Assembly: GCF_024721115.1 (NCBI RefSeq)
Contig: NZ_JAMDHK010000021.1
Span: 1-64,000 of the forward strand
Direction: 5' to 3'
Length of the DNA: 64,000 bases
Origin: Salipiger pentaromativorans
GTDB taxonomy: Bacteria > Pseudomonadota > Alphaproteobacteria > Rhodobacterales > Rhodobacteraceae
A model generated the notes under the pieces. The model was not told where the DNA came from. It saw nothing but the letters and a program-made list of their open reading frames with translations, and did no database searches. The position numbers were made by a program, and so were the translations under genes. Positions within the stretch are counted from its first letter, which is position 1. Each line of letters opens with the position of its first letter. Below are positions 2,655 through 56,145 of this stretch, piece by piece.

Positions 2655-2676
2655 GCGTATTTTGAAAGAGAAGAAG
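2655..2676 (+). repeat. dispersed intergenic element, copy A (class 1)
   Basis: GCGTATTT, four bases, then AGAGAAGAAG. It lies 43 bases after the argF stop codon, in the sense of argF. One of eight related copies in the window. Confidence 0.6.
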
Positions 2677-2818
2677 CGCAAGTCTGGGCGCTGGGGCGGC
2701 AGCCTTCGCGCCTTTTCCTTTCGCGCGCCGGCTGTTGCGAGAGCGCCTGTGCGTGAGCGCGCATTGTCAGCAGGGGCGGGATGGCTAAGGTGGTCGCATC
2801 GCGATCACGGAGGCAGAT

Positions 2819-4219
2819 ATGGCGGAGCCGCAGATCGGCATTTACGGGTTGGGCACCATGGGCTCGGCGTTGGCGCTCAATATGGCCGAGCGGGGCATTT
2901 CCATTGCGGTGTCGAACCGCACTGAGGATCTGATCGCGGCCTTCGAGATCCGGGCGGAGCCTTTTGCGGGCAGAGTCGCGGTCGCGGCGGATCTGCCGGC
3001 GCTGATCGCGGCGTTGCCGCGGCCACGGCTGCTGCTGGCGATGATTCCCTCGACGAAGCCCATCGACGACATGCTGGACGAGGTGATGCCGCTGCTCGAT
3101 GCCGGCGACACGGTGATCGACGCGGGCAATGCGGATTTCCACGACACCCGCCGCCGTGCTGCGCGGATGGAGGCCGCGGGGATGCATTTTGTCGGCATGG
3201 GGGTGTCGGGCGGCGAGGAGGGGGCGCGGCACGGGCCCTCGATGATGTTCGGCGGGTCGGAAGAGAGCTGGCAACGGTTGAAACCGGTGCTGGAGGCGAT
3301 TGCCGCGCGCTTCGGGGAAGATGTCTGTGTGGACCGGATGGGCCCGGACGGCGCGGGGCATTTCGTCAAGACCGTACATAACGGCATCGAATATGCCGAT
3401 ATGCAAATGATCGCCGAGATCTGCGACCTGTTGCGCTTTGGCGCCGGGCTTGCACCGGAGGCGATCGCCGACCGGTTCGCGGCGTGGAACGAGGGGCCGC
3501 TCGGCAGCTATCTCTACGAGATCACCGCAGAGGTGCTGCGCCATGACGATCCGCTGGGCACGGGGCCGATGGTGGATGCCATTCTCGACAGCGCCGGGCA
3601 GAAGGGCACCGGGCGCTGGACGGTCATCGAGGCGGTGCGTCTGGGGCAGTCGGCAACCATGATCGAGGGCGCGGTGGCCGCCCGCGCCTGGTCGGCGGAA
3701 AAGGCTCTGCGCGGGGTGGCGGGAGACATGTTCGGCGCTGCGCGCGATCCTGTCGAGATCGAACCCGGGGCGCTCGAGGCGGCGTTGCTGGCGGCGCGGG
3801 TGCTGGAATATGCGCAGGGCTTTCGGATTCTGGCGGCGGCGTCGGAGGGCTACGGCTGGAGTCTCGATTTCCCCCGGATCGCCGAGATCTGGCGCGCGGG
3901 CTGCATCATCCGGGCAAAGCTGCTCGACGAGATCGCCGGGGCGTTCCGTGACGGGCCGCCGCAGGGGCAGCTTCTCCTCGCGCCGCGCTTTGCCGAAACC
4001 TTCGCCAAGGGCGTTCCGGCGCTGCGGCGCCTCGTTGCGCAGGGCGTTGCGGCGGGATTCCCGCTGCCGGTGCTTGGGGCGTCGTTGAGTTTCTGGGACA
4101 CCCTGCGCCAGCCGCGTGGGACTGCCGCACTGATCCAGGCGCAGCGGGATTTCTTCGGCCATCACGGCTTTGACAGGATCGACGGGAAGGACAGTCGCCA
4201 CGGCCCCTGGTGGGGCTGA
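2819..4219 (+). CDS. gnd: 6-phosphogluconate dehydrogenase (decarboxylating)
   Basis: Oxidative pentose phosphate pathway enzyme giving ribulose 5-phosphate, CO2 and NADPH. The 466 residues match the long (non-archaeal) 6PGDH class. The Rossmann motif GLGTMG is at the N-terminus, with the substrate and catalytic motifs GMGVSGGEEGARHGPSMM, VKTVHNGIEYADMQ (catalytic Lys/Asn) and LDSAGQKGTGRWT. The C-terminal tail keeps the LIQAQRDFFG-H-F-R pattern of the family. A GGAGG ribosome-binding site sits six bases before the ATG. It stands alone between argF and the convergent hrpB. Confidence 0.93.
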   Translation: MAEPQIGIYGLGTMGSALALNMAERGISIAVSNRTEDLIAAFEIRAEPFAGRVAVAADLPALIAALPRPRLLLAMIPSTKPIDDMLDEVMPLLDAGDTVIDAGNADFHDTRRRAARMEAAGMHFVGMGVSGGEEGARHGPSMMFGGSEESWQRLKPVLEAIAARFGEDVCVDRMGPDGAGHFVKTVHNGIEYADMQMIAEICDLLRFGAGLAPEAIADRFAAWNEGPLGSYLYEITAEVLRHDDPLGTGPMVDAILDSAGQKGTGRWTVIEAVRLGQSATMIEGAVAARAWSAEKALRGVAGDMFGAARDPVEIEPGALEAALLAARVLEYAQGFRILAAASEGYGWSLDFPRIAEIWRAGCIIRAKLLDEIAGAFRDGPPQGQLLLAPRFAETFAKGVPALRRLVAQGVAAGFPLPVLGASLSFWDTLRQPRGTAALIQAQRDFFGHHGFDRIDGKDSRHGPWWG

Positions 4220-4225
4220 TCTGCC

Positions 4226-4248
4226 CTTTCATCTTTCTGTAAATACGC
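4226..4248 (-). repeat. dispersed intergenic element, copy B (class 2)
   Basis: On the minus strand: GCGTATTT, five bases, then AAGATGAAAG, preceded by a run of seven T. It lies between the convergent gnd and hrpB stops, downstream of hrpB in its own sense. Confidence 0.6.
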
Positions 4249-4294
4249 AAAAAAACCAGGATGACGCGCCTCGTCGGGCGCGTCCCTGCGGCGC

Positions 4295-54928: not shown

Positions 54929-54956
54929 TCCGCCTCGCGCGGATCAAAACGTGGCA

Positions 54957-54988
54957 TGAAAAAGCCCGCGCCGGGGCGGCGCGGGCTC
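54957..54988 (-). terminator. ilvC intrinsic terminator
   Basis: On the minus strand AGCCCGCGCC / GGCGCGGGCT, perfect ten-base arms, followed by TTTTT. Confidence 0.85.
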
Positions 54989-55012
54989 GGGTCTGACGGA
55001 GAAGACTCCGGA

Positions 55013-56035
55013 TCAGTTCTTGGATTTATCGACCATCTTGCCGGCCGAGATCCACGGCATCATACCGCGCAGCTTTTCGCCGGTGGCTTCGATCAGATGC
55101 TCGTCATTGGCACGGCGCGACGCCTTGATGGTGGGCTGGCCCACGGCGTTTTCCAGCATGAAGTCGCGGACGAACTTGCCCTGCTGGATGTCGGTCAGAA
55201 CGGCTTTCATCGCGGCTTTGGTCTGCTCGTAGGGCAGGATGCGCGGGCCGGTGACATACTGGCCGTATTCGGCGGTGTTGGAGATCGAGTAATCCATGTT
55301 GGCGATGCCGCCTTCATAGATCAGATCGACGATCAGCTTCACCTCGTGCAGACATTCGAAATAGGCCATCTCGGGGGCATAGCCCGCCTCGACCAGCGTT
55401 TCGAAGCCGCAGCGGATCAGCTCGACCAGACCGCCGCAGAGCACGGCCTGTTCGCCGAAGAGGTCGGTTTCGCATTCCTCGCGGAAATTGGTCTCGATGA
55501 TGCCCGAGCGGCCGCCGCCGATGGCCGAGCAATAGCTGAGGCCCAGCTCCAGCGCCTTGCCGGTGGCGTCGTTGTTCACGGCCACCAGGCAGGGCACGCC
55601 GCCGCCTTTGGTGTATTCGCCGCGCACGGTGTGGCCGGGGCCCTTGGGCGCCATCATGATGACATCGACGCCGGGCTTCGGCTCGATCAGGCCGAAATGC
55701 ACGTTCAGGCCGTGGGCGAAGGCGATGGCGGCGCCTTCCTTCAGGTTGTCGTGCACGTATTTCTTGTAGGTCTCGGCCTGAAGCTCGTCGGGCATGGTGA
55801 ACATGATCAGGTCGCACCAGGCGGCGGCTTCGGCGATGCCCATGACCTGGAGACCCTCGGCTTCGGCCTTCTTGGCCGAGGCGGAGCCTTCGCGCAGAGC
55901 GACGACCAGGTTCTTGGCGCCGCTGTCGCGCAGGTTCAGCGCGTGGGCGTGGCCCTGCGAGCCGTAGCCCAGGATCGCCACTTTCTTGTCCTTGATGAGG
56001 TTGATGTCGCAATCGCGATCGTAATAGACGCGCAT
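55013..56035 (-). CDS. ilvC: ketol-acid reductoisomerase
   Basis: Converts acetolactate to dihydroxy-isovalerate (valine/leucine branch) and acetohydroxybutyrate in isoleucine synthesis. 340 residues, class I length. [21 protein letters not shown] start, NADPH-binding [28 protein letters not shown], and [14 protein letters not shown] with the metal-binding acidic residues. Start 56035 with AAGGA upstream. Divergent from a tandem of Lrp regulators, so leucine-responsive control is plausible. Confidence 0.97.
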
Positions 56036-56121
56036 CTTTCTCGTCCTTCCTTGGGAGTGTTTTGCTGTTGTTATGGGGCGCACCCTAGCCCCGGCACGGC
56101 GAGAGTGGTTGCGTTTTGCGT

Positions 56122-56145
56122 GCGTATTTGGAAAAGAGAAGAAAG
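56122..56145 (+). repeat. dispersed intergenic element, copy H (class 1)
   Basis: GCGTATTT, five bases, then AGAGAAGAAAG, between the divergent ilvC and Lrp-type genes. It lies 35 bases before the regulator start. Confidence 0.6.

Follow-up and report, generated by a model that had tools for sequence, protein, structure and literature searches.

The window analysed here is a stretch of 64,000 nt from contig NZ_JAMDHK010000021.1 of Salipiger pentaromativorans (assembly GCF_024721115.1; host genome, G000) whose genes include argF, hrpB, meaB and ilvC. In the gaps between its genes lies a short two-part element with a core formed by a G-rich tetrad plus TATTT, two to five free bases (a range set by our search) and a purine-rich box of 10-12 nt. 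The spelling of the box, referred to here as its dialect, varies between genera. An initial annotation of the window had listed eight copies in two sub-types, class 1 and class 2, and all eight were recovered, with their coordinates and strands, when the sequence was re-read (Table 1). Seven fit the two strings given for these sub-types exactly; the copy at 56122 does not, having AAGAAA rather than AAGAAG at its end. Gene calls confirm that all eight are intergenic, and the runs of seven T said to precede the copies at 4226 (minus) and 19971 (plus) are present. The two sub-types are real, but there is at least one more class, represented in the window by a copy at 1587-1608 (minus). The original observation is right but understated: it included neither the dialects nor the third class, and the inverted doublets described below had also gone unnoticed. 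Orthologous positions in Table 1 are those of a congener, G149, which has plasmid pPABY2 of Salipiger abyssi JLT2014, at an unchanged coordinate, and is therefore taken to be that species. It is 87% identical to the host over the argF region and has an ortholog of all nine window copies.

Table 1. Copies of the two-part element, and one adjoining feature, in the 64,000-nt window.
Feature	Positions	Strand	Setting and ortholog in G149
Third dialect, GGGATATTT-GGA-GCCAATGGAA	1587..1608	-	Between class III aminotransferase gene (407-1582) and argF; not in the initial annotation
G+C-rich stretch ending CCCCC	1609..1648	-	Immediately 5' of the third-dialect element above
Class 1	2655..2676	+	43 nt 3' of the argF stop (argF 1685-2611); ortholog at same place and orientation; also in other congeners, some respelled
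Class 2 after T7	4226..4248	-	Convergent gap, 6PGD gene (+) / hrpB (-); ortholog
Class 1	6816..6838	+	Divergent gap hrpB (-) / meaB (+); ortholog; other-dialect elements in this gap in several congeners
Class 2 after T7	19971..19993	+	Convergent gap; ortholog
Class 2	24780..24803	-	Convergent gap; ortholog
Class 1	25987..26009	+	Divergent gap before RlmL-like methyltransferase gene; ortholog, flanks 19/20 and 14/16, spacer changed
Class 1	47190..47211	+	Ortholog is class 2
Class 1, last box base differs	56122..56144	+	Divergent gap beside ilvC (KARI, minus strand); ortholog is class 2

Searches of the whole host genome (5.28 Mb) with exact patterns identified 76 copies of class 1 (35 on the plus and 41 on the minus strand) and 73 of class 2 (33 and 40 by strand), and reversed controls gave none. 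The count is far over chance and the element is enriched between genes rather than equally frequent inside them, the two comparisons that the initial annotation had proposed. A chance origin of the copies is excluded. Placement was determined in an 864-kb sample picked irrespective of the motif, consisting of the window and a further 800 kb (G000 C11:1-400000 and C22:160001-560000). This sample contains 54 copies, 41 of them exact although one mismatch per half was allowed. Genes were called with a home-made finder, unchecked against annotation, and the two copies that fall inside called genes may be miscalls. The element accounts for 48 of the 69 intergenic occurrences of GTATTT; 148 more occurrences are genic. 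With up to one mismatch, all 29 right halves of class 2 are intergenic and accompanied by the left half. Right halves of class 1 with a left half are intergenic in 23 cases and genic in three, and those without are intergenic in one and genic in seven. Scrambled right-half controls (12 and 0 matches) had a left half beside none. Genome-wide, the class 2 12-mer occurs 86 times (control 0), and a full or degenerate left half precedes 85 of these (weak in one, C34:292522), leaving one orphan. An RNA guide acting in trans is not supported for class 2, as one orphan among 86 is about chance level and no separate guide locus was seen. No Rfam 15 family matched the window at gathering score.

Three or four dialects occur in each genome sampled, and tetrad and box are mostly paired. 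In the host, class 1 joins GCG-TATTT to AAAGAGAAGA in 22 of 22 copies and the third class joins GGGA-TATTT to GCCAATGGAA in 6 of 6, and the class 2 box GAAAGATGAA is found with GAG-TATTT (17 of 27), GCG-TATTT (8) or others (2). The corresponding matches in G149 are 33 of 35 (class 2, GAG), 12 of 13 (class 1, GCG) and 8 of 8 (third class, GGGA). Another genome of the genus, G088, has dialects of its own: GGGATATTT..GCCAGAAGAA, with a matched GGGA tetrad in 10 of 10; GAGGTATTT..AACCA(A/G)AGAA, with GAGG beside AACCA in 12 of 13; and GGAGTATTT..ACG(A/T)AGAGAA, with GGAG beside ACG in 12 of 13. In a further genome, G010, GGAGTATTT is combined with CAACGAAGAA, CCAC..TGAAA or AACAGAAGAA, and once GAGGTATTT with GCAAGATGAAA; all 14 of its copies have a spacer of three free bases. 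The halves match strongly in G088 and G149, and more loosely in host class 2 and in G010.

The copies persist at their sites. When host copies were mapped to G149 (33 unmappable copies and three that are genic or at an edge were left out), 22 of the 26 mappable ones were found at the same place and in the same orientation. One is reversed, its doublet mate being kept, and three have no counterpart. Chance overlap is small, because the searched 800 kb of G149 holds only 59 copies. Dialect is kept in 14 of the 22 pairs and switched in eight. Six switches are class 1 in the host and class 2 in G149 and two are class 2 and third class; class 2 against class 1 was not seen. One class 1/class 1 doublet of the host is a class 2/class 2 doublet in G149. 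In 13 of the 14 same-dialect pairs (one was dropped for a degenerate TATTT), the left 8-mer is 99/104 (95%) and the right 10-mer 128/130 (98%) identical, values that are conditional on an ortholog still lying within one mismatch of a dialect. The spacer (29/42, 69%) and the upstream (150/260, 58%) and downstream (132/208, 63%) flanks are less similar. Flanks so diverged do not account for the kept fraction of 22 in 26, and the copies look selected one by one, with interchangeable spelling. The earlier suggestion that they are remnants of a mobile sequence fits this persistence, and the difference between boxes and flanks, poorly. We also considered the spacer as a hypervariable cut site, which is ruled out by its flank-like identity.

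The clearest exchange of spelling is at 56122, where the upstream flank is 18/20 identical to that of the G149 ortholog and the downstream flank is alike after a one-base shift. As both flanks are kept, only the core has changed. Partial cases are the copies at 47190 (13/20 and 9/16) and C22:225987 (13/20 and 10/16), and the other switched pairs are uninformative.

Longer-range persistence was seen in the gap between argF and the gene preceding it, an aminotransferase gene that, by its position, we take to be argD. The argF loci compared are the best 80 of 582 relatives, many of them from metagenomes, and 79 were usable (one was too short). The window argF is most closely related to that of Salipiger abyssi (97%), followed by that of S. 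thiooxidans (94%). The element is present antisense to argF in 43 of the 79 loci, with spelling that varies between genera. By the same rule it is found in 0 of 79 on the other strand of the gap and in 2 of 700 random 220-nt stretches. In 40 of these 43 loci a long open frame terminates beside the box, no more than two bases away in 38, and in the window the stop of the aminotransferase gene is only 3-4 nt from the box of the copy at 1587-1608. A hairpin test covered those loci, 32 of the 79, with the pattern GGGGG..GGGGG..CCCC, the Salipiger hairpin being of another form. In the tested hairpin the two outer pairs are variable, with bases changed in both arms, and stay paired in 59 of 64 cells (mean 37.9 and maximum 51 for 5000 shuffles of partners), counts that ignore the relatedness of the loci.

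In this gap (e.g., L209:1421-1484), a second GGGGG precedes the hairpin GGGGGC..GCCCCC in the mRNA sense. As either GGGGG could serve as partner of the CCCCC arm, a switch between two folds is possible. One locus (L166), in which the element precedes an argF of roseobacter type, is titled Enemella evansiae, which is an actinobacterium; this assembly is probably mislabelled. On the other side of argF, the element at 2655 is kept in ten congeners. It was not found at the same place beyond the congeners: 6 of 80 argF loci have any match within 220 nt past the stop, and a match of the same kind occurs only in S. abyssi.

No hairpin lies within the core, as the initial annotation stated for the whole element, but directly upstream is a G+C-rich stretch that forms a stem-loop at some loci. 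The 13 nt before the core in the host (n = 52) include four or more T in 12 copies, four or more C in 10, a CCGGCGG module in nine and none of these in 21. No copy in G088 (0/35) or G010 (0/14) has four or more T within this distance. The upstream stretch is more structured than shuffled sequence (z < -2) in 60% of G088 copies, compared with 12% of random intergenic stretches, and in 29% compared with 16% in G010 (n = 14).

Context differs between classes. The tested gaps of the host have total lengths of 36092 (tandem), 22794 (divergent) and 11582 (convergent). Class 2 (n = 29) occurs in 14 convergent and two divergent gaps, which make up 16% and 32% of gap length, with 10 further copies in tandem gaps in the sense direction and three in antisense. 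In G149, class 1 (n = 15) occurs in four convergent, three tandem sense, three tandem antisense and five divergent settings and the third class (n = 9) in three, three, three and none. In the host and in G149 alike, divergent gaps are avoided by class 2; a clear preference for convergent gaps exists in the host only.

Could these simply be intrinsic terminators with a conserved 3' flank? Class 2 favours 3' ends in the host, two window copies follow T7 and, as with Rho-independent terminators in general, many class 2 copies come after a stop codon and some are near a hairpin or T-run. However, the arrangement that typifies such terminators, a stem-loop directly followed by a T-tract, is not general here, given four or more T in just 12 of 52 host copies and in none of those in G088 or G010. 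The conserved box is downstream of the tract and is spelled differently in different lineages, something not to be expected from RNA polymerase alone. The element also occurs in antisense and divergent settings, and the divergent-gap copies at 6816, 25987 and 56122 keep their orientation. We consider this explanation distinctly unlikely, and in this agree with the initial annotation, which saw neither an ordinary terminator nor a classical repetitive extragenic palindromic (REP) sequence; what it described is a real intergenic element that comes in sub-types. A landing site on RNA, also proposed there, is possible for some copies but leaves unexplained those in divergent gaps (6 of 25 class 1 copies) and those antisense to flanking genes.

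Nor is a role in marking the direction of replication supported. The plus-strand bias of class 1 in the window (5/5) is local, and the 35:41 strand distribution genome-wide provides no sign of the consistent replichore orientation of KOPS, Chi or Ter sites. Copies lie with and against the local GC skew 37:17 in the host (p 0.009; genes 443:360), an excess on the strand of positive skew, 33:26 in G149 and 18:18 in G088. We therefore reject replication polarity as a rule, since the host excess is not repeated in the other two genomes, and do not find a replication-polarity site supported. There is a bias towards the chromosome: G149 has 108 class 2 sites and, of the 100 listed, 98 are on the 4.25-Mb contig and two on other replicons (~1.05 Mb), a bias that has p 0.004 even if all eight unlisted sites lay elsewhere. 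This bias and the lack of context preference of host class 1 would suit a chromosome-organising site, involved in nucleoid anchoring or segregation, whose protein reader takes no account of gene context. The lack of consistent strand polarity argues against such a role and, to our knowledge, sites like parS, KOPS or matS do not typically have several dialects in one genome. We regard it as highly improbable.

Some copies form inverted doublets. In the four genomes, each sampled in part, all 21 close pairs have a tail-to-tail arrangement (five in the host, nine in G149, seven in G088 and none in G010), although these are not all independent, as some orthologous pairs are common to the host and G149. 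The distance from TATTT to TATTT is 49-71 nt. Doublet members make up 12 of the 54 copies in the host sample. Seven doublets on contig C3 of G088 are alike (149882, 198190, 230924, 262088 and 271579, 345002, 417594; L098, L100, L102, L104, L108, L111). By eye, their first boxes agree, as do large parts of the loop and outer hairpins, and the spacer is TTG in all but one, which has TCG. These similar doublets show occasional copying within one genome. The gap that holds the element at G088 C3:230924 contains, in the window, an inverted repeat GGTGGGCAGATTGCCCACC ... GGTGGGCAATCTGCCCACC at 58290-58440.

Doublets of this kind raise the possibility of a miniature mobile element like REPINs (REP doublets forming hairpins). 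The inverted doublet would be the copied unit, singles its remnants, each dialect the family of one transposase, and intergenic placement a matter of tolerance. The GI-GIII REPs of Pseudomonas fluorescens are intergenic, with few families per genome, singles and inverted doublets (71 bp in GI), and hairpins with compensating changes (PMC3116915), and the element resembles them on all these counts, its pairs also having a narrow distance range. The three or four dialects per sampled genome, the hairpins near the element and the seven similar G088 doublets, which by eye look recently copied, fit as well. The differences are substantial. The Salipiger-type core is non-palindromic and is without the GTAG or CGTC tag given for REPs (PMC3733652), and the hairpin, where present, is outside the core. 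A free spacer separates two boxes, both kept where spacers have diverged, and sites are kept between species, sometimes respelled. REP singlets are more decayed than doublets (PMC3116915), whereas here singles are as intact as doublet members (exact in 32 of 42 and 9 of 12). The REP-associated tyrosine transposase (RAYT) is ruled out as the driver in G000, G088 and G010, as a search of these three carrier genomes, which did not include G149, gave 0 matches to its domain Y1_Tnp (PF01797); the domain was found in 15 of 149 family genomes. An origin of this type is, on balance, somewhat unlikely.

The element is widespread. Of 149 family genomes, 28 contain a class 2-like pattern for which the control is 0, and the bases next to it differ from genome to genome. 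Occurrences of GAGTATTT followed by a purine 16 nt on outnumber those of the reversed pattern in genomes such as G131 (197 vs 10), G110 (128 vs 4) and G088 (105 vs 4) among the 149. In some family genomes, GAGTATTTN16R is not over its reversed control (G026, 11 vs 22; G017, 34 vs 125; G009, 29 vs 41). In a search of 385 genomes of the class, CCCCCGRRRTATTT was found 9, 13, 1, 0 and 0 times in the five that belong to the family and 0-2 times in the others, as in controls (also 0-2). This subtype seems restricted to the family, and some family genomes lack it. A single 46-nt query matched nine plasmid records, all from genera of Rhodobacterales, and no phage record.

An uptake-like signal, which would owe its spread and maintenance to molecular drive (biased import of DNA, with recombination) rather than to a local function, would account for lineage dialects around a constant core, the many exact copies, the inverted pairs, the chromosome bias and the absence of phage-record matches to the 46-nt query. 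The one-sided switches between the host and G149 (six from class 1 to class 2, 0 in reverse) would also be expected. Neisseriaceae DNA uptake sequences (DUS) likewise combine a constant core with lineage dialects and have inverted pairs and many exact copies, and two dialects in one genome are known from Simonsiella muelleri (PMC3630211). However, there are ~1900 DUS in the 2.2-2.3 Mb of N. meningitidis and N. gonorrhoeae, with one-mismatch copies outnumbering exact ones and many in genes (PMC3630211). The element has only 76 + 73 exact copies in 5.28 Mb, not the thousands of DUS, and is ~30 times rarer per base. It is nearly all intergenic, avoiding genes, is 22-24 bp long in two parts, and has 41 of 54 copies exact. 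Three or four dialects per genome also contrast with two at most noted for DUS, minority dialects apart (PMC3630211). We judge this explanation very unlikely. In sum, REPIN-like mobility and uptake-like drive are the main rival readings; the element shares several traits with REP/REPIN sequences and with DUS but lacks features that define each.

What, then, is the element? Our tentative answer, possible but held with some doubt, is that it is a two-part recognition site of a putative lineage-specific factor at gene boundaries. Because the spacer is free, the boxes are fixed, the halves are mostly matched and the sites persist, something appears to read both boxes together, and because spellings differ at one site, the sites would do one job that is open to several readers. 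A boundary or termination-helping role is our first choice because of the hairpins, the context of class 2 and the tail-to-tail pairs in gene gaps. The proposed unit is a mainly chromosomal boundary element: [G+C-rich stretch or stem-loop]-[tetrad + TATTT]-[2-5 free bases]-[10-12-nt dialect box]. Its two boxes would be read together, as double-stranded DNA, by a putative sequence-specific protein of which each dialect has its own variant or paralogue. Less surely, the protein bound beside the hairpin may mark or seal the boundary, aiding RNA polymerase to stop or insulating neighbouring units, and paired copies may hold two molecules face to face.

Several points weigh against a protein-read boundary site. 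No binding factor for the element was found, and we know of few ordinary protein sites with such near-exact matching to a consensus, which could point to copying or drive instead. Covariation of the halves is not strict: host class 2 carries the class 1 form GCG in 8 of 27 copies, and G010 joins GGAG to three different boxes. The 45 nt upstream in the host are stabler than random intergenic sequence (-20.3 vs -12.9 kcal/mol), yet not beyond their composition (19% with z < -2 in both), and among G000, G088 and G010 clear upstream structure is found in G088 only. Host class 1 has no boundary preference (n = 25: two convergent, nine tandem sense, six tandem antisense, six divergent and two inside called genes). 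The class 2 preference is weaker in G149 (n = 35): nine copies are in convergent gaps (18% of gap length), two in divergent gaps (31%), 16 tandem sense, seven tandem antisense and one inside a gene. Core-only exchange is clear at one site (56122) and partial elsewhere: flanks of the switched pairs are 53% (upstream) and 40% (downstream) identical without gaps (n = 8), compared with 33% and 35% for unrelated copies. The conditions attached above to the box identities, the pre-argF pair counts and the number of doublets weigh in the same direction.

A bolder, and unlikely, extension is a dialect-coded chromosome address system. Sites would stay put across the evolution of the family while their spelling is rewritten in situ to suit the dominant paralogous reader or copying enzyme. 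The clearest case would be 56122, where little beyond the 23-bp core has changed. If true, this would be a new kind of element that is not a mobile repeat, an uptake signal or a terminator. We found no description of the element in those parts of the openly licensed literature on repeats, terminators, uptake sequences or REPs of this group that were available, and a term search of the accessible text of PMC3733652 did not return any of six names of the group.

The finding is of interest because a conserved signal with lineage-specific spellings is spread over numerous genera of a marine group that is abundant. If it is read by proteins, the three or four dialects per genome and their natural sites would constitute a test of how sites and readers change together. 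If copying drives it, these bacteria would harbour a mobile element or drive system that lacks the transposase one would expect. In both cases, the element would be of help in annotating gene boundaries in Rhodobacterales.

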